From Gordonibacter massiliensis (ex Traore et al. 2017) (GTDB lineage Bacteria > Actinomycetota > Coriobacteriia > Coriobacteriales > Eggerthellaceae), in contig LT827128.1 of NCBI GenBank assembly GCA_900170005.1, forward strand, positions 62,001 to 126,000: a stretch of DNA of 64,000 nucleotides. The letters are read 5' to 3'. Below, one piece after another: positions 3,958-20,068 of this stretch. Positions within the stretch are counted from its first letter, which is position 1; each line of letters begins with the position of its first letter. The position numbers were made by a program, and so were the translations under genes. A model generated the notes under the pieces. The model searched no databases. It saw only the letters and a list, made by a program, of their open reading frames with translations, and was not told where the DNA came from.

Positions 3958-4051
3958 GCAAAAGGGTGCGATAGCGCGTATGTCGCATCGCCGGCGAAGC
4001 GACAGGGATCGTCGAAGCTCCAGCCGTCGGCCCGCCGCGCCCCCGTTGCCT

Positions 4052-5752
4052 CTAAAACACCGACTTCGCCCTCGGTCTCCCCGTTTCGCCTTCCTCCTCG
4101 AGCAGCGTGCGCGCGAAGGCGATGGCGTCGTCGATGTTGGCGCGGAAATGGTCTTCGCCCACCGCATCGACGAATCCGGCGCGCCGCATGGTGCGCAGAG
4201 GCTGCTCGTTCGCGTGCGAGAAGATGAGGCTCACCCCGTTCTCCTGGCAGTACGAATGCAGGTTCTCCAACGCGTTCATTCCCGTGGAGTCCAGCGAGGG
4301 CACGCCCCGCATGCGGATGATCAGGTACTTCGTGAACGATTTCACCGAGATGTCGCCGATGCGGTCGGTCATGCCGAAGAACATGGGGCCGTTGATCTCG
4401 TACACGCGGACGCTCTTGGGAAGCTCGCGCAGGTGGGTGACCTCGGAGTTCTCGTCGCCGTAGTACTTCCAGCCTTTGACCTCGGTCTCGGCGCTCACCT
4501 GCTTCATGAACAGGACCACGGTGATCAGCATGCCCACGGCGATGGCGGTCACGAGGTCGAACGCGACGGTCAGGCCGAACGTGAGCAGCAGGGTGGCCAC
4601 CGCGCCCTTCGACGACGTTTTGCTCAGATGCGCGAAGTTGCGCCAGCCCGACATGTTGTACGCCACGTGGAGCAGGATCGCCGCGATGGTTGGCATGGGG
4701 ATGAAGGCGGCGTAGGGCATGAAGAAGGCCAGCACGATGAGCAGGACCAATGAGTGTGTCATGCCGGCGACGGGGGTGCGGCCGCCGTTCTTCACGTTGG
4801 CGGCGGTGCGGGCGATGGCGCCGGTCGCCGGGATGCCGCCGAACAGCACCGACGCGATGTTGCCCCCGCCTTGGGCGATCAACTCCATGTTGCTGCGATG
4901 GTGCGAGCTGATCATGCTGTCGGCCACCACGCAGGAGAGCAGCGACTCGATGGCGGCCAGGATGGCGATGGTGATGCCGTTCGCCAGCTGGTCGCGGAAC
5001 AGGTCCATGCTCAGATGGGGAAGATGGAATTCCGGCAGGCCGCCGTTGACGGCGTACAGGTCGCCGATGGTGAGCACGTCCATGTCGAAGACGCCCACCA
5101 GGGCCACACCCGCGACGAGCGCGACCAGGGAGCCGGGGATCTTGTCGTTCACGCGGTTCCAGGCGAACAGGATCGTCAGGCACACCGCGCCCACCAGGAG
5201 CGCCTGCCAGTTCAGCGTGCCGATGCTCTGGGCGACGGCTTGCAGCTTGTCCATGGTCTCCACCGTCGGAGCGCCTTCGGGGAAGGTGAGGCCGAGGAAG
5301 TCCTTCGCCTGGCCGATGACCAAGGTGGCCGCGATGCCCGCGGTGAAGCCCGTGGTGATGGTATAGGGCACGAAGCGGATGATGGCCCCCAGCTTGAACA
5401 GCCCCATGAGGATGAGCAGCACGCCGGCGATGAGGGTGGCCGCCACCAGGCCCTCGATGCCGTCGGCGGCGACGATGCCCGCGACGATCGTGGCGAAGGC
5501 GGCGGTGGGCCCAGAGATCTGCACGCGGCTTCCTCCGAACAGCGCGATGAAGAACCCGGCGACGATGGCGGTGTACAGCCCCCGCTCGGGGCTCACGCCG
5601 GAGGCGATGGCCAAAGCGATGGAGAGGGGCAGCGCCACCACGGCCACCATGATCCCCGACACCACATCTCGAGGGAGCTGCTTCTTCAGTTCCTCCTTGT
5701 CGGTGTGCTTGATGATGCTGATGAGGATGGGTTTGAGTTTGTCGCGCTGCAA
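4052..5752 (-). CDS. SulP family anion transporter with STAS domain
   Basis: This 566-residue membrane protein belongs to the SLC26/SulP family of sulfate, bicarbonate or dicarboxylate transporters. After a basic N-terminus come about a dozen hydrophobic segments (residues 30-420). They include 'SGVSPERGLYTAIVAGF' and 'ISGPTAAFATIVAGI', the most conserved SulP blocks. A C-terminal STAS domain (about 445-545) contains 'VPSLDSTGMNAL', the phosphorylatable loop of anti-sigma-antagonist folds. The only start compatible with the frame is TTG at 5752; an AGAAGAGAAG stretch upstream is a weak ribosome site. Family members range from sulfate to bicarbonate uptake, so substrate is undetermined. It is transcribed alone, convergent with tag. 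Confidence 0.9.
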   Translation of the reverse strand: MQRDKLKPILISIIKHTDKEELKKQLPRDVVSGIMVAVVALPLSIALAIASGVSPERGLYTAIVAGFFIALFGGSRVQISGPTAAFATIVAGIVAADGIEGLVAATLIAGVLLILMGLFKLGAIIRFVPYTITTGFTAGIAATLVIGQAKDFLGLTFPEGAPTVETMDKLQAVAQSIGTLNWQALLVGAVCLTILFAWNRVNDKIPGSLVALVAGVALVGVFDMDVLTIGDLYAVNGGLPEFHLPHLSMDLFRDQLANGITIAILAAIESLLSCVVADSMISSHHRSNMELIAQGGGNIASVLFGGIPATGAIARTAANVKNGGRTPVAGMTHSLVLLIVLAFFMPYAAFIPMPTIAAILLHVAYNMSGWRNFAHLSKTSSKGAVATLLLTFGLTVAFDLVTAIAVGMLITVVLFMKQVSAETEVKGWKYYGDENSEVTHLRELPKSVRVYEINGPMFFGMTDRIGDISVKSFTKYLIIRMRGVPSLDSTGMNALENLHSYCQENGVSLIFSHANEQPLRTMRRAGFVDAVGEDHFRANIDDAIAFARTLLEEEGETGRPRAKSVF

Positions 5753-6141
5753 TGGTCTTCTCTTCTGGTGTCGGGCTCGTCTCGTCGTGCATTCCCGGCA
5801 GACGAGACGCCTCAGCTGGGCGCGGCGCTATCAAAGCGCAGGCGCTCTTCGGCGGCGATCTTCGTTTGCGATGGGGTTAGCGAAAGGATTCTAGCAGATG
5901 ACGAGCCGAATGGTGGAATATTACCGCTGAACACTACATTCGCGAGTTGCCACCACGTTCGGCGTTCGGAGGCGGTGCGCCCTGCCGGATATATTGAAGC
6001 AAAGAAGCCTGCGAATCGTATTCGGGCTTCTTATCAGGTATAGCGTTGCCAACGCGATTGCTCCGCACTGCTGAATGCGCTGTAGCGCGGGCAAGATTGT
6101 TGTTCTTGAAAAGGTTGCGGAACTTTTGCGCGAATTTGTAC
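5753..6141. other. Intergenic gap: SulP upstream region and downstream region of the nuclease gene
   Basis: The right part has visibly lower GC, continuing that of the nuclease gene. On the minus strand a -10-like TAGAAT (5888-5893) may serve the SulP gene, with no clear -35. The gap also contains the hairpin described separately. No protein gene is supported. Confidence 0.4.
6002..6032 (-). terminator. Hairpin downstream of the nuclease gene
   Basis: AAGAAGCC and GGGCTTCTT pair around an inner GAAT/ATTC stem. Read on the minus strand, the right arm AGGCTTCTTT ends in a short T-run. It lies about 110 nt past the nuclease stop codon. Confidence 0.5.
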
Positions 6142-7791
6142 TCAATACAACAAACCGAGATCATCCTCAACTTCTTTTTGCAAAGTGTAAAACTTTCTGT
6201 TCATGAGGTCAGATGGATGAACGCCGTTTGCTATAGCATTGAGATCGCTCCCGTCGATCATGAGAATGCTCTTTCCTTGGCATGCGAGCCTGGTCGATTG
6301 TTCAATAGCCACTTTGCTAAAACCTGACATCGATATAATCAGGCCTGTTTTACAGCCTTTCGCGTCCATAACGAAAGAGAGGTTGCGCAAAACGGAAACT
6401 CCCGTGATCTCGAGTCGATTTTTGCACTCTGCAAGCAAAATAGCGCCCATGTCCCAAGCGCTCTGGTCGAGTGAGGCATTCACGAAACAAAGATCTATCT
6501 CGCAATCGTCTGCCTTCACCCTTCGACCCGCCAGCAACCATCCTTCTACAGCGCTTAACATATAGGCAGCCAGATTTTCTAGGGCAATACCTTTATCTGA
6601 GACGGTCGAAGTTTTGCAAATTGTGAGCAGTTCGCGGAACCTTTCATGGCTGAAGGATTGCGCTTTGATTGGCATAGTCAGACCGTTCGGAAGATTCTGA
6701 TGCAAAATTGGCGCAATAGCATTCAATTGGTAGACCCTGGAAGGCATTTCAAGTGCAAAACGCCTTGTCAAAGACGATTCCTCTATGCCCCTCAAAGATG
6801 AAGCGGCTCTTTCGGCAGATGCCAAGAACGCTTGGAGAAAAGTGTCTTCATCTACGGCAGTCTCGCTTGCCTCGCAAGGAAGCCTCTCCTGCAGCATTGC
6901 CAAGCAACCACGATATACGTTTCGCGCTTCTTCCAGACTCCACTTTCGAACATAAACCGAGATGGCGCAGCAATACAAGAGGGCATTGAACCATTCGTCC
7001 GCAATCTCGTGTGGCAAGATGTCTACCCCATAGCTGTTTGCTGGATTCGATACGATCTGCTCTATGTCGACCTCTGTCCATCGGCCAACCACGGATGAGT
7101 CGGTTTGTTGACTGATGGGGAGTGCTCCTTCAGCCAAACTAATCCTTCTTGCACCCTCGAGAAGCAACTCCCATTCGTGCTCGATAGGATTGAAAAACGG
7201 CGCCACGATCCTTTTTCCGCGAAGTGGGTTGAGAAGAAACGAGGTTGTGAGCACCTGGCGCTTGAAAAGAACAGGCTCTTCCTGATCTATCCAGGCATCT
7301 GCAAATTGCTCAAGCGCAATCAGGCACTCATCCTTTCCGGGAAGACCATCTCCTGAGCTCATTACGAATAACTTGAACTTCGCTTCATCGTCGTATATTT
7401 GAAGATAGCTCGCTTTTGACCACGGCGTCATAGCTCTTGCTATTGGAACGCACAGATCAAGGAAGAGCTCGAAGCTCTCGTCGTAGTCAATCGTATGAGA
7501 GGGAGAACTGTTCGCAGAATCATCGTCAAAGTCGCCACGAATCGCCGAATCCATTGAAAACCCGAAAGACCTCCTAAGAAGAGAATCTTTGAACCTGTCA
7601 ACATCGTCTTCATGGCCGAAGAATCCGTATACTTCGGTTACATTCAAATCGCTTGCTGCTGCGATTGAAGCGTGCTCATCACGCAACTCGGCAATGCGTT
7701 CTAAAAAGTCCAAAGGATGGCTCAAAGTGTCTTTCGGGATAAATTCAAACTCTACTCCGTCGTCTAGCACGGAGATGTATAAAAGCTCCAT
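6142..7791 (-). CDS. Mrr-like restriction endonuclease-fold protein, low GC
   Basis: This is a 549-residue protein with an unrecognised N-terminal 400 residues and a C-terminal domain (about 400-520) of the Mrr/PD-(D/E)XK nuclease type. The domain shows 'KGIALENLA' (first helix Glu), 'CEIDLCF' (Asp 433), then 'LAECKN' (Glu 455, Lys 457), the expected D...ExK active site, and 'GLIISMSGFSKVA'. Such domains cut DNA in stand-alone modification-dependent restriction or serve as effectors of defence systems. No methyltransferase or helicase partner is adjacent. The start is ATG 7791 with GAGG five bases upstream; the frame is open further up but without similarity. Its GC content is far below that of the neighbours, which suggests recent acquisition. 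Function beyond 'nuclease-fold protein' is inferred. Confidence 0.7.
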   Translation of the reverse strand: MELLYISVLDDGVEFEFIPKDTLSHPLDFLERIAELRDEHASIAAASDLNVTEVYGFFGHEDDVDRFKDSLLRRSFGFSMDSAIRGDFDDDSANSSPSHTIDYDESFELFLDLCVPIARAMTPWSKASYLQIYDDEAKFKLFVMSSGDGLPGKDECLIALEQFADAWIDQEEPVLFKRQVLTTSFLLNPLRGKRIVAPFFNPIEHEWELLLEGARRISLAEGALPISQQTDSSVVGRWTEVDIEQIVSNPANSYGVDILPHEIADEWFNALLYCCAISVYVRKWSLEEARNVYRGCLAMLQERLPCEASETAVDEDTFLQAFLASAERAASSLRGIEESSLTRRFALEMPSRVYQLNAIAPILHQNLPNGLTMPIKAQSFSHERFRELLTICKTSTVSDKGIALENLAAYMLSAVEGWLLAGRRVKADDCEIDLCFVNASLDQSAWDMGAILLAECKNRLEITGVSVLRNLSFVMDAKGCKTGLIISMSGFSKVAIEQSTRLACQGKSILMIDGSDLNAIANGVHPSDLMNRKFYTLQKEVEDDLGLLY

Positions 7792-14938: not shown

Positions 14939-15756
14939 GGGTGATGGCGCGTTCTGCGGAAGAGGCGCGAAGGCCCGCGACGGGCGCTCGCATCCGCCGC
15001 GCGACGGGGAAGCGCCAGCGTGCTCGGCGATTGGCGCTGACGGTGTCGTTCCTGCTGTTTCCCATCACCATATTCTACTTCTCGCCGGTGCTCGTCATCG
15101 AAGGCGCGCTTGCGGGAGCGGTGGTGGGCAGCATGCTCGTGTTTTTGCTGCAGTTCGCGTCGGCGCTCGTGCTTCGCCGCGCGTTTTGCGGGTGGCTGTG
15201 CGCGGCGGGCGGGCTGCAGGAGATAGAGGCCGATGCGGTAGGCAAGCCGGCGAGGCTGGGGTGGCGCACGCGCATCAAGTACGTCATCTGGGTGCCGTGG
15301 CTCGCCTCCATCGTGGCGTGCGCCTGGATGGCGGGCGGCTTCTCGACGATCGACCCGCTGGCCGGCATTCCGGGCGGCGTGTCGCTGAACAACCCGCTGG
15401 GGTTGGGCATCTACTTCGGCATCGTGGCGCTGTTCTTCGTTCCCAACCTGTTTTTGGGACGGCGGGCCATGTGCCATTGCATCTGCTGGATGGCGCCTTT
15501 CATGGTGCTAGGCGGGAAACTGGGGCACGCGATGCGCGCACTGCAGCTGCACGTCGACGCGCGGCCGGAGACGTGCATCGGATGCGGAAAGTGCTCGAAG
15601 GCGTGCCCTATGAGCCTGGACGTGCAGGCTTTGCTGCAGGGCGGGGCCATCGCGGATGCCGAGTGCATCCAGTGCGGCGCGTGCGCGGACACGTGCCCGA
15701 AGGACACGCTCTCGCTGCGATTCGGGCGGATGGGAAGGCGCACGGGCGGCGCGTAG
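14935..15756 (+). CDS. NapH-like membrane-bound 4Fe-4S ferredoxin protein
   Basis: This 273-residue protein combines membrane helices (about 34-53, 56-80, 117-135, 155-175) with NapH/NosR-type Cys motifs. 'CGWLCAAGG' lies at 85-93 and 'CHCICW' at 180-185. A C-terminal two-cluster ferredoxin has Cys 214, 217, 220, 224 and Cys 244, 247, 250, 254. Such proteins pass electrons between the quinone pool and a soluble or periplasmic partner. No reductase is adjacent, so the partner is unknown. Starts at GTG 14935 (overlapping the tetR stop), GTG 14941 or ATG 14944 are all possible; they change only the first three residues. Confidence 0.82.
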   Translation: MRVMARSAEEARRPATGARIRRATGKRQRARRLALTVSFLLFPITIFYFSPVLVIEGALAGAVVGSMLVFLLQFASALVLRRAFCGWLCAAGGLQEIEADAVGKPARLGWRTRIKYVIWVPWLASIVACAWMAGGFSTIDPLAGIPGGVSLNNPLGLGIYFGIVALFFVPNLFLGRRAMCHCICWMAPFMVLGGKLGHAMRALQLHVDARPETCIGCGKCSKACPMSLDVQALLQGGAIADAECIQCGACADTCPKDTLSLRFGRMGRRTGGA

Positions 15757-15820
15757 GCGCGCGTTCGGCGTGGCCCGGCGGATTCCGCGCGTCGGGCACG
15801 TGTCCTTTAGCCGACCGTGC

Positions 15821-15826
15821 TATACT
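15821..15826 (+). promoter_or_regulatory. Likely -10 element of the yjdF leader
   Basis: TATACT lies just upstream of the structured leader. No strong -35 is visible at the expected spacing. Confidence 0.45.
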
Positions 15827-15834
15827 GCCCCTGC

Positions 15835-16007
15835 GAAGATGAAAACACGACCCCGTCGGGTAGTCGGGGTGCGGTGGGGCGGTGCAAACCGCCCGGAGCG
15901 TGTCGTCATGGTGGGCGAAGCGCTTCGGGCACGCAGCATCCCCTTCCGTCAGTAACCTGCCTCCTTGGTTGTCCCTTCTTCGTTCGTTCACAACGACATA
16001 AGGAGGA
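15835..16007 (+). promoter_or_regulatory. yjdF-type riboswitch leader with ribosome-site sequestration
   Basis: The leader has compact hairpins (CCCCG...CGGGG at 15851-15868, GGGCGGT/ACCGCCC at 15877-15894) and ends with TCCGTCAGTAACC, in the style of the yjdF RNA motif. It sits directly before a yjdF gene, where that riboswitch, known to bind azaaromatic compounds, occurs. An anti-ribosome-site CCTCCTT (15960-15966) is exactly complementary to the AAGGAGG (16000-16006) of yjdF, and flanking TTGT/ACAA extend the pairing. Control of translation is therefore likely. The motif identity is from memory and gene context, not a covariance search. Confidence 0.7.
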
Positions 16008-16010
16008 TTC

Positions 16011-16454
16011 ATGCAGGTCAACACATCATCGACGTTGACGGTGCTTCACGACGGCCAATTCTGGGTGGGCATATGCGAGCAGCGCGACGGCTCGCGCTAC
16101 GGGGCGTGCCGCTTCGTGTTCGGCCCCGAGCCGAAGGACGAGGAGGTGCTCGCCTTCGTGTGCCGGCACTGGGACCGCCTGGATTTCCGCATGCGCGACG
16201 AAGGGGACGCGGCCGAAAACGGGTCGGCACCGGTCGGCGCGCGCAATCCGAAGCGCGCCCAGCGCGAGGCGCGCAAGACGCTCGAGGCCGCCCGGCGCGG
16301 CGTGGGCACGAAAGCGCAGCAGGCGCTGTCGGCGGCCTACGAGGAGCGCAAGGACGAGCGCCGGTCGGACACTCGCGAACTCCGTGAGGCCGAGGAGCGC
16401 CGTGCCTTCGAGCTGCGCACGCTGAAGCGCAAGCGGAAGCATCGCGGGCATTGA
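16011..16454 (+). CDS. yjdF: YjdF family protein (DUF2992)
   Basis: The 147-residue product matches YjdF. It opens with 'LTVLHDGQFWVGICE', then 'RFVFGPEPKDEEVLAFV', 'NPKRAQREARK', 'GVGTKAQQAL' and a basic coiled C-terminus rich in Lys, Arg and Glu. The function is unknown; in Firmicutes the family is controlled by a riboswitch sensing azaaromatics and is thought to help cope with such toxic compounds. ATG 16011 follows AAGGAGG at four bases' distance. It appears monocistronic. Confidence 0.9.
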   Translation: MQVNTSSTLTVLHDGQFWVGICEQRDGSRYGACRFVFGPEPKDEEVLAFVCRHWDRLDFRMRDEGDAAENGSAPVGARNPKRAQREARKTLEAARRGVGTKAQQALSAAYEERKDERRSDTRELREAEERRAFELRTLKRKRKHRGH

Positions 16455-16628
16455 TCGGGGCTTTTGCGGAAGGCTGACCGGGTCGCCGACGGGTGCGTCT
16501 TTGACGTTTGGTCGGTGTGCTCGCGTTGTCTGCGAACACCGGCATTTTTCCGGTCGTTCGGCCCGCTCCGCTTCGCGCGCGGGATGCGGCGTTTGCCCGT
16601 ATTGGCGGGGTGCTTTTGCCGAAAGTGT

Positions 16629-16775
16629 CCTCCGCTGTTAAACCAGCATCGATACGCACCCGGCCGGGTTGTCATCCTGAGCATGCAACAGCCCACTGGA
16701 CTGTCGAATGCTCCGCTCGCTCGGGATGACAACGCGCTGTCTTGCGGAATGCCAATATTGGTTTAACGGCGGAAG
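16629..16775. mobile_element. Palindromic element, 'GTCATCCTGAGC' family, copy 2
   Basis: The left end CCTCCGCTGTTAAACC and the right end GGTTTAACGGCGGAAGG are inverted. Inside, GGTTGTCATCCTGAGCATGC is mirrored by GCTCGGGATGACAACGC. It is about half the length of copy 1 at 9343-9632, whose GGCCGGGTG/CACCCGGCC segment it shares. Confidence 0.75.
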
Positions 16776-16794
16776 GCTGAGCTTGATCGGTTTC

Positions 16795-16957
16795 TGCGCA
16801 AAAATCACCGACGTCCCCCCCAACGCGGGGCCCTTAAAACCCCTTCGACCACGCACCTTGGCAAAATCACGGTGTTCTCCCAGCTCGCGGAATCCAGTCT
16901 GGGTGCGACGACCGCGCTGAAGGTTCAAGCAACGGGGACATCGGCGATTTTTGCACC
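16795..16957 (-). mobile_element. 163-bp MITE-like element, 'AAAATCACCG' family, copy B
   Basis: The ends TGCGCAAAAATCACCGACGTC and GACATCGGCGATTTTTGCA are inverted. The interior core is in reverse orientation relative to copy A: GTTCTCCCAGCTCGC at 16874-16888 is the complement of the 'GCGAGCTGGGA' seen in copy D. It lies 20 nt after a 'GTCATCCTGAGC' element, repeating the pairing seen at 9.3-9.9 kb. Confidence 0.78.
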
Positions 16958-17438
16958 GCAAACCCACCTTCCGCTGCTAAACCAAATTGAACCTAGGCCT
17001 GTGCGAGGCTGCGCGGCGCCCGGTTGCTGTCGGTCGCTGCGCGGAGGCGTTTCGGCCGCGATCCCACAGCGGAATCGGCCCGTTGCGCACAAGAACCCCG
17101 ACGTATGGGTTCGAAGGGTTCCGAAAGGCGCTTTCGAGCCGGCCGCCGGAGCTCTTGGCCGCATGCTCCGGCAAGACAATAATTCCGACCGGGGGCTTTG
17201 CGGGCGGGGCGAGAGCCGTGTCGGGGCACCCCCGGAGCGGTTGCCCCGCCTTCGTTCGAAAGGGAGCGCGAGGCGCGCAAGGTGCGCGCGGGCTTTCGCC
17301 GAGGTGGTCCGGCGGCTCGGCAACAGCCGTTTGACGTGGGTGAAACGGCTTGTCCCATAATTGTGGGCGCGTAGGTCACACCTATGCGGCAACCCGTACC
17401 ATAACCGGATGGCATATCGGTTGCGGCTAAGGAGTTGC

Positions 17439-19163
17439 ATGAAACGGGTAATCGTGGTGGGAGCGGGGGTCGCCGGACTGGCGGCGGCCATCCGGTTGCG
17501 GTGCGCGGGGTACGACGTTGCTCTGTATGAGAAGGAGCCGCAGGTCGGCGGCAAGATGAGCCGCATTCGGGAAAACGGGTACACCTTCGACGTCGGTCCC
17601 ACCATCGTGATGATGCCGGCGCTGTACCGCGAGGTGTTCGAGCTGGCCGGTCGCGATCCGGACGACTACATACCCATGCGGAAGGTCGAGCCGCTCATGG
17701 AGATATCGTTCGGCCCGGGCGAGCGGCTGAGGCTGTCGAACGACCTGTCCGACCTCACGGCCGGCCTCGAGGGCGTGAGCGAGGACGACGCGCAGGGCTA
17801 CTTCGAGTACCTGGCGCTGCTGTACAAGCGCTACCGCATAGCCAAGGACAACTTCCTGCAGCGCTCGTTTCGCGGACCGGCCGATTTCTACAACCCGAAG
17901 AGCCTCCTGGCGGGCTTCCGGCTGCACACGCTGGGCGACGCGTACTCGTCGGTGTCGCGCTACGTGAAGGACGACCGCCTGCGCAAGGCGCTGGCGTTCC
18001 AGACGCTCTACATCGGCATCTCCCCGTACGAGGGGCCCTCCCTGTACATGATCATTCCCATGATCGAGCTGCTGTACGGCGTGTGGTTCATGCCCGGAGG
18101 CATGTACGCCATGGCCGAAGGCATGGGGCGCCTGTTCGAGGAGCTGGGCGGCGAGCTGCGCACGTCGGTGCCCGTGGAGCGCATCGCGGTCGAGGGCGGG
18201 CGCGCCGTGGGCGTGGTTGCGAACGGCGAGCTGGTGCGCGCCGACTGCGTGGTGTGCGACGCGGACTTCCCGTACGCCATGAAAGAGCTCGTGGGCGACG
18301 AGCGGGCGCGCGGGCGCTACACCGACGAGAAGATAGAAGGCATGGAGTACTCGTGCTCGTGCTTCATCCTGTACCTGGGGCTGGACAAACGCTATCCCGA
18401 CGACACGGTGCACTCCATCAGGTTCGCGCCGGACTTCGAGCGCAACATCGCCGACATCTTCGACGGTGCCCGCTTTCCGGACGATCCGTCGTTCTACTGC
18501 TACGCGCCCACGTCGCTGGATCCGTCGCTCGCGCCCGAGGGCGGCAGCACGCTCTACGTGCTGGTGCCGGTACCGCCTTCGTCGGAACAGGGCCCCTCTT
18601 GGGACGCCGACGAGGTGGCCGCGTACCGCGACAAAGTGCTTGACCTGGTGGAGCGCGAGACGGTGTACGAGGACGTGCGCGACCACATCGCGTTCGAGCG
18701 CGTCTACACGCCGCTCGACTTCGCCGAGCGGTTCAACGCCTACCGGGGAGCCACGTTCGGGCTGCGGCCCACGCTGCGGCAAAGCAACTACTGGCGGCCG
18801 CACAACAAGGCCGAGCGCTGCGAGGGGCTGTACTTCTGCGGCAGCAGCACGCATCCGGGAGCCGGCGTGCCCATCGTGCTCTTGAGCGCGAAGCTGGCGG
18901 CCGACGAGCTCGTGGCCGACGACCGCGCCACGACGGCGGCCGATCGGGCGGTGGCGGGCCAGGTGGCCGTGGTGGCCGCGCGCGGGGCGGCCGCCGCCGA
19001 AGGCACGACGGGCGGAATGAGCGTCGGTGCGGTTGCGAGCGGCCCGACGCCTGCCGGAGCCGCCACCGGCTTTACGGCAGCGGCCGGCGTCCCGGCGGCG
19101 AACCGTTCGGAGGGCGCCGTCGTCGGTTCGGGGGCGCCCGGCGGCGGGGAAGGCGGTGCGTGA
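17439..19163 (+). CDS. crtI: CrtI-type phytoene (or diapophytoene) desaturase
   Basis: This 574-residue flavoprotein would introduce double bases of conjugation into phytoene to give coloured carotenoids. Residues 3-40 form the FAD dinucleotide fold ('VIVVGAGVAGLAAAIRL', 'VALYEKEPQVGGKM'). The middle holds 'YTFDVGPTIVMMP', and the conserved C-terminal block is 'GLYFCGSSTHPGAGVP'. After that, about 80 residues (494-574) rich in Ala, Gly and Thr extend beyond the usual end. ATG 17439 follows AAGGAG. It is the first gene of a three-gene operon with crtB and a prenyl-kinase-like fusion. Whether the substrate is C30 or C40 cannot be decided, and no cyclase gene is present. Confidence 0.9.
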   Translation: MKRVIVVGAGVAGLAAAIRLRCAGYDVALYEKEPQVGGKMSRIRENGYTFDVGPTIVMMPALYREVFELAGRDPDDYIPMRKVEPLMEISFGPGERLRLSNDLSDLTAGLEGVSEDDAQGYFEYLALLYKRYRIAKDNFLQRSFRGPADFYNPKSLLAGFRLHTLGDAYSSVSRYVKDDRLRKALAFQTLYIGISPYEGPSLYMIIPMIELLYGVWFMPGGMYAMAEGMGRLFEELGGELRTSVPVERIAVEGGRAVGVVANGELVRADCVVCDADFPYAMKELVGDERARGRYTDEKIEGMEYSCSCFILYLGLDKRYPDDTVHSIRFAPDFERNIADIFDGARFPDDPSFYCYAPTSLDPSLAPEGGSTLYVLVPVPPSSEQGPSWDADEVAAYRDKVLDLVERETVYEDVRDHIAFERVYTPLDFAERFNAYRGATFGLRPTLRQSNYWRPHNKAERCEGLYFCGSSTHPGAGVPIVLLSAKLAADELVADDRATTAADRAVAGQVAVVAARGAAAAEGTTGGMSVGAVASGPTPAGAATGFTAAAGVPAANRSEGAVVGSGAPGGGEGGA

Positions 19164-20068
19164 TGCGGGCCCCGAGCGACGCGTTCGAGGCGCGTGCCGA
19201 CGACTTCGCCTGGTGCGAGGATGTGATCAGACGAAACTCTCACAGTTTCTATCGTGCGTTCTCGCTTCTGCCTCCGCGCAAGCGCAAGGGCGTGTATGCC
19301 GTGTACGCGTTCTGCCGCGCGGCGGACGATTGCGTGGACGTTGATGCCAGCAAGGAGCGGCTGGACGGGTTGCAGCGCGACTTGGAGCGGTTCTGCGCCG
19401 GCGCGGTGCCGCGCGCGCCGTTGTGGCGGGCGCTGGACGCGGTGTTCTCCGTGTTCGACATGGACGAGGGGCCCTTCTTCGACATGCTGGAGGGGCAGCG
19501 GCGCGATTTGGCGTTCCGCCAGCCCGCCGACATGGAGGAGCTCGAGGACTACGGCTATTACGTGGCGGGTTCGGTGGGGCTCATGCTGCTGCCGCTGCTG
19601 CGCTCCGGGCGGCCCGTCGACGATGCGCTGCGGGAGGACGCCGTGGCGTTGGGCGTGGCCATGCAGCTGACGAACATCCTGCGCGACGTGGGCGAGGATC
19701 GGGATGCCGGACGCGTCTACCTGCCCGCCTCCGTGCTAGAGGACGCCGGCTGCACGCGCGATGACCTGGCGGCGCGCCGGGCGGGTGCGGCGTTCCGGGC
19801 GGCATGGGAGCGCGTGGCACGGCGTTCCGAAGAGCTCTACCGCCCCATGCAGCGCGACATCCTGCGGCTGGACGAGGACAGCCGCTTGCCCACGCTTTCG
19901 TCGCTGTTTCTGTACCGCGGCATCATGGATCAGGTGCGCGCCGACGGCTATAGCTGCTTGGAGAGGCGCAACGTCGTTCCGAAGGAACGCGCGACGGCGC
20001 TCGTCGGCGAGGCGCGTGCGCTGCTCGCCGATGCGCAGGGCGCGGCTGCGGCCTGGGAAGGCAGGTGA
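19163..20068 (+). CDS. crtB: Phytoene/dehydrosqualene synthase
   Basis: The 301-residue product condenses two prenyl diphosphates head to head, the first committed carotenoid step. Both Asp-rich magnesium sites are present: 'AADDCVDVD' (54-62) and 'QLTNILRDVGEDRDAGRVYLP' in two adjoining blocks (about 167-187). 'GYYVAGSVGLML' is also typical. The length fits CrtB/CrtM. The stop of crtI overlaps the start (TGATG), with GGGGAAGG upstream, showing translational coupling. The family is certain; C30 versus C40 specificity is not. Confidence 0.92.
   Translation: MRAPSDAFEARADDFAWCEDVIRRNSHSFYRAFSLLPPRKRKGVYAVYAFCRAADDCVDVDASKERLDGLQRDLERFCAGAVPRAPLWRALDAVFSVFDMDEGPFFDMLEGQRRDLAFRQPADMEELEDYGYYVAGSVGLMLLPLLRSGRPVDDALREDAVALGVAMQLTNILRDVGEDRDAGRVYLPASVLEDAGCTRDDLAARRAGAAFRAAWERVARRSEELYRPMQRDILRLDEDSRLPTLSSLFLYRGIMDQVRADGYSCLERRNVVPKERATALVGEARALLADAQGAAAAWEGR

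Follow-up and report, generated by a model that had tools for sequence, protein, structure and literature searches.

An intact-looking yjdF riboswitch of a known class precedes yjdF in Gordonibacter and shares a nine-base L2 loop with its order

Sequence comparison indicates that the leader RNA of yjdF in this Gordonibacter genome is a genuine, intact-looking yjdF riboswitch of an already known class, and we consider it very probable that this yjdF/azaaromatic riboswitch acts as a translational ON switch for the adjoining yjdF gene. Within the window (the whole 64-kb stretch of DNA analysed), the sole gathering-level Rfam match was to RF01764, the azaaromatic/yjdF aptamer, at 15829-15992 on the + strand (56.8 bits against a cut-off of 45, E = 1.8e-8), and it covered model positions 1-101, i.e. 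the full length. An earlier note on this DNA had named the element a yjdF riboswitch and suggested a search with the Rfam model, which the above-cut-off match bears out; the interval given there (15835-16011) located the aptamer correctly and was slightly too short, as P1 begins at 15832. The same riboswitch scored 49.3 bits in searches of the whole genome and of the order (which we take to be Coriobacteriales or its GTDB equivalent), and the searches of the order, the phylum and the two Firmicutes classes used stricter filters at the cost of some weak matches. One RF01764 copy was found in the 3.95-Mb genome. A lineage model (R1), built from 38 relatives with the window excluded, scored the same place at 90.5 bits and gave no second riboswitch locus in this genome up to E = 1 (150 of 3,742 first-look candidates scored).

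The blocks AACAC, GGUAGU, CAGUA and GUCC, which the accessible text of the crystal-structure paper names as pocket positions (PMC10987639), were all found in the leader in the RF01764 alignment. The P1-P4 helix junction was recovered by the Rfam alignment as well as by model R1, and the leader (15829-16025) was more stably folded than all of 200 shuffles (z = -3.45). Features are collected in Table 1.

Table 1. Positions of the yjdF leader features in the window, with the basis of each assignment.
Feature	Position	Strand	Basis
Extended -10, TG-C-TATACT	15818-15826	+	Sequence; ends 5 bases before P1
P1 5' strand	15832-15839	+	Rfam alignment, lineage model R1, two-sided changes across relatives
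J1/2, conserved AACAC at 15844-15848, ligand-pocket side	15840-15849	+	Alignment; roles from PMC10987639 (accessible text)
P2 hairpin ACCCCG / CGGGGU with 9-nt loop L2 UCGGGUAGU (15856-15864)	15850-15870	+	Rfam alignment: one inserted G
P3 arm: long, imperfectly paired hairpin of 79 nt	15871-15949	+	Computed fold
J3/4 CAGUAACCU, pocket wall	15950-15958	+	Rfam alignment; PMC10987639 (accessible text)
P4 of the ligand-bound fold; a short hairpin, weakly held by G-U, C-G and C-G	15959-15969	+	Alignment, folding
Putative anti-ribosome-site strand CCUCCUUGGUUGU	15960-15972	+	Minimum free energy structures; comparative P4/site pairing
J4/1 GUCC; CC pairs with GG of L2 as the pocket floor	15971-15974	+	Role from PMC10987639 (accessible text)
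P1 3' strand	15977-15984	+	Rfam alignment, lineage model R1
yjdF ribosome-binding site AAGGAGG	16000-16006	+	Sequence
yjdF, 147 aa, DUF2992 / PF11208, ATG at 16011	16011-16454	+	Pfam

The class is common in this order. Of the 395 order genomes searched, 129 had an RF01764 match (127 above the cut-off), and each of the five genomes listed for the genus keeps a riboswitch copy. An even draw over the phylum gave matches in 18 of 396 genomes, all 18 within this order, and two draws of Firmicutes classes gave matches in 39 of 299 and 22 of 291 genomes. These draws, one per class (299 and 291 genomes), form the groups that we take, from Fictibacillus and Flintibacter, to be Bacilli and Clostridia. 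The earlier description of the RNA as known mainly from Firmicutes and lying here in a high-GC genome is outdated: Actinobacteria were already listed among its hosts in 2016 (PMC4793209) and, with 129 of the 395 order genomes matching, an actinobacterial high-GC host is no surprise. Of the remaining named loci beyond the order, ten were checked, and every one matched RF01764. Two loci of the order (L147 and L166) have a GGUAGGUAGC / AAGUAA core that is otherwise found in Clostridia and in named Firmicutes loci, and was perhaps acquired by transfer. Four named Firmicutes loci (L048, L054, L056 and L057) also carry an FMN riboswitch, on the other strand and about 1.4-1.8 kb past the point where the yjdF riboswitch begins.

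The gene context is that of the class. The open reading frame just downstream, called yjdF in the earlier note, is indeed a DUF2992 (YjdF) gene (Pfam, 148.1 bits, 2.1e-43) and the only DUF2992 match in the genome; its protein matched nothing in NCBIfam up to E = 0.001, and its nearest named relative, from Gordonibacter sp. 28C, is 89% identical. YjdF was encoded within 650 nt of the aptamer in 94/99, 26/27, 16/16 and 20/20 distinct rows of the four groups compared, the 99 being those of the order. Transcription probably starts at about the first base of P1, given that a -10-like hexamer stands 3-10 nt ahead of P1 in 95 of the 99 order rows (59 with TG), compared with 14% in shuffles of those upstream stretches. 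A consensus promoter scan that required a -35 box found no promoter at the leader, so a -35 element would be weak or lacking.

Other genes follow the riboswitch at some loci. Nearly identical copies in nine genomes of three families (L067, L068, L070-L074, L171 and L193) precede a 93-residue open reading frame, not yjdF, that keeps only the first few codons of yjdF. Further genes were examined in L068 alone among these nine mobile-copy loci: the riboswitch (about 4000-4100) is followed by a Mef(A)-like transporter gene at 4706-6001 (322 bits, cut-off 675) and an Msr-like ABC-F gene at 6263-7732 (672 bits, cut-off 680), and upstream lies a tyrosine-recombinase-like open reading frame (a weak match). 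Judged from these genes, L068 is probably a mobile macrolide-resistance island in which the riboswitch may be a bystander, the transporter having, by eye, its own promoter and leader; a search for plasmid-borne relatives of this type of copy gave no near match. In L118, L135, L167 and L169 the riboswitch precedes, in place of yjdF, a gene for a membrane protein with motifs that, by eye, we take to be CPBP-protease-like, and a Pfam scan of the first 80 residues of this protein gave no match. In the window itself, a repeat (16631-16773) lies just after yjdF; its ends are inverted repeats, TCCGCTGTTAAACCA / TGGTTTAACGGCGGA, and it contains a further inverted repeat inside. With 82 matches in the genome, whole or partial (its own included, some places counted on both strands), it looks like a MITE- or REP-like family. 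A second inverted repeat, with 28-nt arms that are 82% complementary, occupies 16791-16818 and 16934-16961. Further on, at 17361-20068, a gene of the flavin amine-oxidase family (phytoene-desaturase-like by eye) adjoins a squalene/phytoene synthase gene (Pfam), a pair that suggests carotenoid synthesis.

We assessed helix conservation in an alignment (A1) of 38 out of 40 sequences, diversity-picked from 81 with a short P3 and a nine-base L2 (L168 and L123 were left out by hand). Paired cells made up 90.1% of the total, compared with 84.8% in shuffles, and 53 cells were changed on both sides, compared with 19.6. Half of these two-sided changes fell in P1, at three pairs (in 12, 10 and 5 of the 38 sequences), with P3 and the outer pairs of P2 also contributing. 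Two of the five measures were indistinct from shuffles: neither the number of pairs with a two-sided change (9 versus 6.9; 48 of 500 shuffles did as well) nor the number of further pair types (22 versus 22.0; 329 of 500) showed an excess. P3 was paired in only 70% of cells, and P4 and the pairs beside L2 hardly vary in A1, which speaks neither for nor against them.

Pairing between the leader and the ribosome-binding site was examined separately. The complementarity pointed out in the earlier note, between CCTCCTT (15960-15966) and AAGGAGG (16000-16006), is present at those places, with seven Watson-Crick pairs plus an extension; in minimum free energy structures, 15960-15972 pairs with 15993-16006 through 13 pairs, two of them G-U, with one bulge at 15998. 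The pattern of CCTCCTT, 10-40 bases and AAGGAGG occurs once in the window in a search of both strands, compared with 0.00 expected from 100 shuffles, a descriptive count since the pattern was drawn from the observation itself. CCTCCTT alone occurs 10 times in the window (4.4 expected), and 424 of 20,000 shuffles of the 26-nt segment 15950-15975 pair with the ribosome site equally well. By itself the pairing is thus only modestly unusual, and the family model and the comparative test are the stronger evidence. The computed fold also allows CUGC (J3/4-P4) to pair with the GCAG of codons 1-2, but for this pairing we make no claim: CTGCC is found in P4 in 95 of the 99 order rows, ATGCAG in only 41.

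Across relatives, P4 strands match the ribosome sites of their own leaders better than those of others. The mean own-partner score was 19.40 against 16.39 (sd 0.35) when the 43 distinct P4 strands were freely re-dealt and 17.12 (sd 0.34) when they were re-dealt within the four groups, and none of 5,000 permutations reached it in either case, shared-ancestry effects being only partly removed by these permutations. One example is the CCCCCTC of L205 (Bacilli), matched with GAGGGGG; the top-scoring match, of 13 pairs, belongs to L040, a leader without an above-cut-off Rfam match. Dropping L040, or six rows that were doubtful or misparsed, left the outcome unchanged, and the test also holds without L219, L220 and L235, whose P4 strings are overlong parses. 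Within the order alone the test gave p = 0.15 with eight distinct P4 strands; P4 is nearly invariant there, and the test is therefore powerless on that subset. Such own-partner matching suggests that sequestration has been under selection across the family, and lends comparative backing to the sequestering stem that had been proposed for this leader. Computed without ligand, the off fold (-81.3 kcal/mol) is more stable than the aptamer fold (-75.5 kcal/mol), in a calculation that ignores ligand and tertiary contacts. The partition function gave 0.28-0.41 for the specific pairs between the anti-site strand and the site and 0.87-1.0 for each ribosome-site base being paired, and other partners are predicted to compete for the site in this ensemble.

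A different account of ON switching is that the bound aptamer, through a tRNA-like shape, acts on the ribosome to raise translation, with freeing of the site being secondary. Such an effect has been reported for the S. aureus and S. ratti aptamers (PMC9142559, accessible text). We consider it an unlikely main route here: selection on sequestration, to which the P4/site matching points, is something that this account does not need, and the 79-nt P3 arm would occupy the place of the anticodon arm described in PMC9142559.

The leader is unusual in two respects, its order-shared one-base-longer L2 and its long P3 side arm. The region of P3 (15867-15950) folds at -50.1 kcal/mol (z = -4.15, none of 200 shuffles as stable), and the interval from L2 to J3/4 is 85 nt here compared with a median of 23 among the 99 distinct order rows, reaching at least 60 nt in five of them, this leader included. 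L2 has nine bases in place of the usual eight, and the RF01764 model takes the extra base as one insertion. After cleaning, the order was represented by 100 distinct rows, of which 88 show a nine-base and 11 an eight-base loop, and one misread by the parser (L093) is also eight-base; outside the order, a nine-base loop was seen in none of 63 rows, four of which are ties by stem count yet have eight bases by sequence. Two false parses, the L209 row and one of the pair of L119 rows, were removed in this recount; the pairing, YjdF-distance and 99-row counts omit all rows led by L119 or L209, including the true L119 row, and restoring the latter left the pairing test unchanged. Parsing failed for 40 of the 257 sequences (the window plus 256 loci). 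Of those within the order, the mobile-element copies (L067, L068, L070-L074, L171 and L193) and L082, L156, L167, L169 and L170 show a nine-base loop, L147 and L166 an eight-base loop, and L079, L162, L173-L175 and L190 fall outside the L2 reading. Outside the order, L236, L247 and L252 have an eight-base and L245 a variant loop, L194, L212, L238, L246, L249, L251, L254 and L256 fall outside the reading, L038, L043, L053, L060 and L062 are without an above-cut-off Rfam match, and L051 lies in the same genome as the L194 copy. A tree of 155 YjdF proteins, with poor support at 71 of its 152 inner branches, requires four changes of loop class.

A loop one base over consensus could disturb the pocket. 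Three distinct relatives have L2 UUGAGUAGU together with J4/1 GUCU and with CC in place of CA in J3/4. When the extra base is placed between U51 and G53, this combination converts the crystal pair G53-C118 to A-U, a two-sided change seen in the 2 rows that carry it among the 38 of A1; on this evidence the floor of the pocket seems to be preserved, probably with the extra base bulged out. Could the extra base and the overgrown P3 instead mark a riboswitch that has lost its function? The leader does have the lowest Rfam score of the five genus genomes (49.3 bits, the other four scoring 56.3, 63.5, 65 and 74.8); however, its remaining pocket positions are intact, the nine-base loop is the rule in the order, the lineage model gives 90.5 bits and the other four listed genus genomes all keep a copy, and we rejected decay as very improbable. 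Rather unlikely, too, is that the nine-base loop of the order (UYGGGUAGU, closed by C-G and G-C) defines a distinct aptamer subtype whose pocket is remodelled, and whose ligand preference is altered, by the extra base between U51 and G53. If the subtype were real, preference might have moved toward plant or drug aromatics met by these gut actinobacteria. The order-wide change of one base is a ready test of whether the riboswitch's broad pocket has been retuned, and the subtype is the one departure worth a bench test. We found no description of a nine-base L2 in the accessible text of the class literature; figures, supplements and the Rfam seed alignment may show it.

Transcription termination is common among Firmicutes riboswitches, but as a mode of control here it is hardly credible and was rejected, as the scan of 15700-16600 was empty of terminator-like sites and the pairing strand aims at the ribosome site itself. 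Under translational control, transcription would begin at about P1 and, without ligand, the anti-ribosome strand would cover AAGGAGG and hide the yjdF ribosome site. A planar multi-ring nitrogen compound would enter the pocket of L2, J1/2, J3/4 and J4/1 and, once bound, would keep P1 and P4 closed and the anti-ribosome strand tied up, so that AAGGAGG is freed and YjdF is made. This ON-switch sequestration model has already been published, and ligand binding, the ON direction and the pocket structure are taken from the accessible text of the same papers (PMC4793209, PMC9142559 and PMC10987639); family membership, gene context, covariation, own-partner matching of P4 and ribosome site, and the empty terminator scan come from the present analysis. 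We infer that the leader RNA behaves like the published yjdF riboswitches and that the role of YjdF is to handle some toxic aromatic compound.

These results confirm a known riboswitch class in a gut-bacterial genus known to transform plant polyphenols, with comparative support for its sequestering mechanism, whereas published work, as far as its accessible text goes, is on Firmicutes examples (PMC4793209, PMC9142559, PMC10987639 and PMC2864571). Compared with the RF01764 examples in these sources (the R. gauvreauii crystal structure, the S. aureus and S. ratti aptamers and the B. subtilis representative), the Gordonibacter leader has in common the P1-P4 junction, the core blocks, a P4 strand complementary to the ribosome site and yjdF downstream; it differs in an L2 of nine rather than eight bases, in its 79-nt P3 arm and in lacking the optional hairpin before P2. 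Compared with other yjdF riboswitches of the order, its P3 arm is longer than most, whereas the nine-base L2, the nearly invariant P4 and J4/1 and the extended -10 just before P1 are shared.
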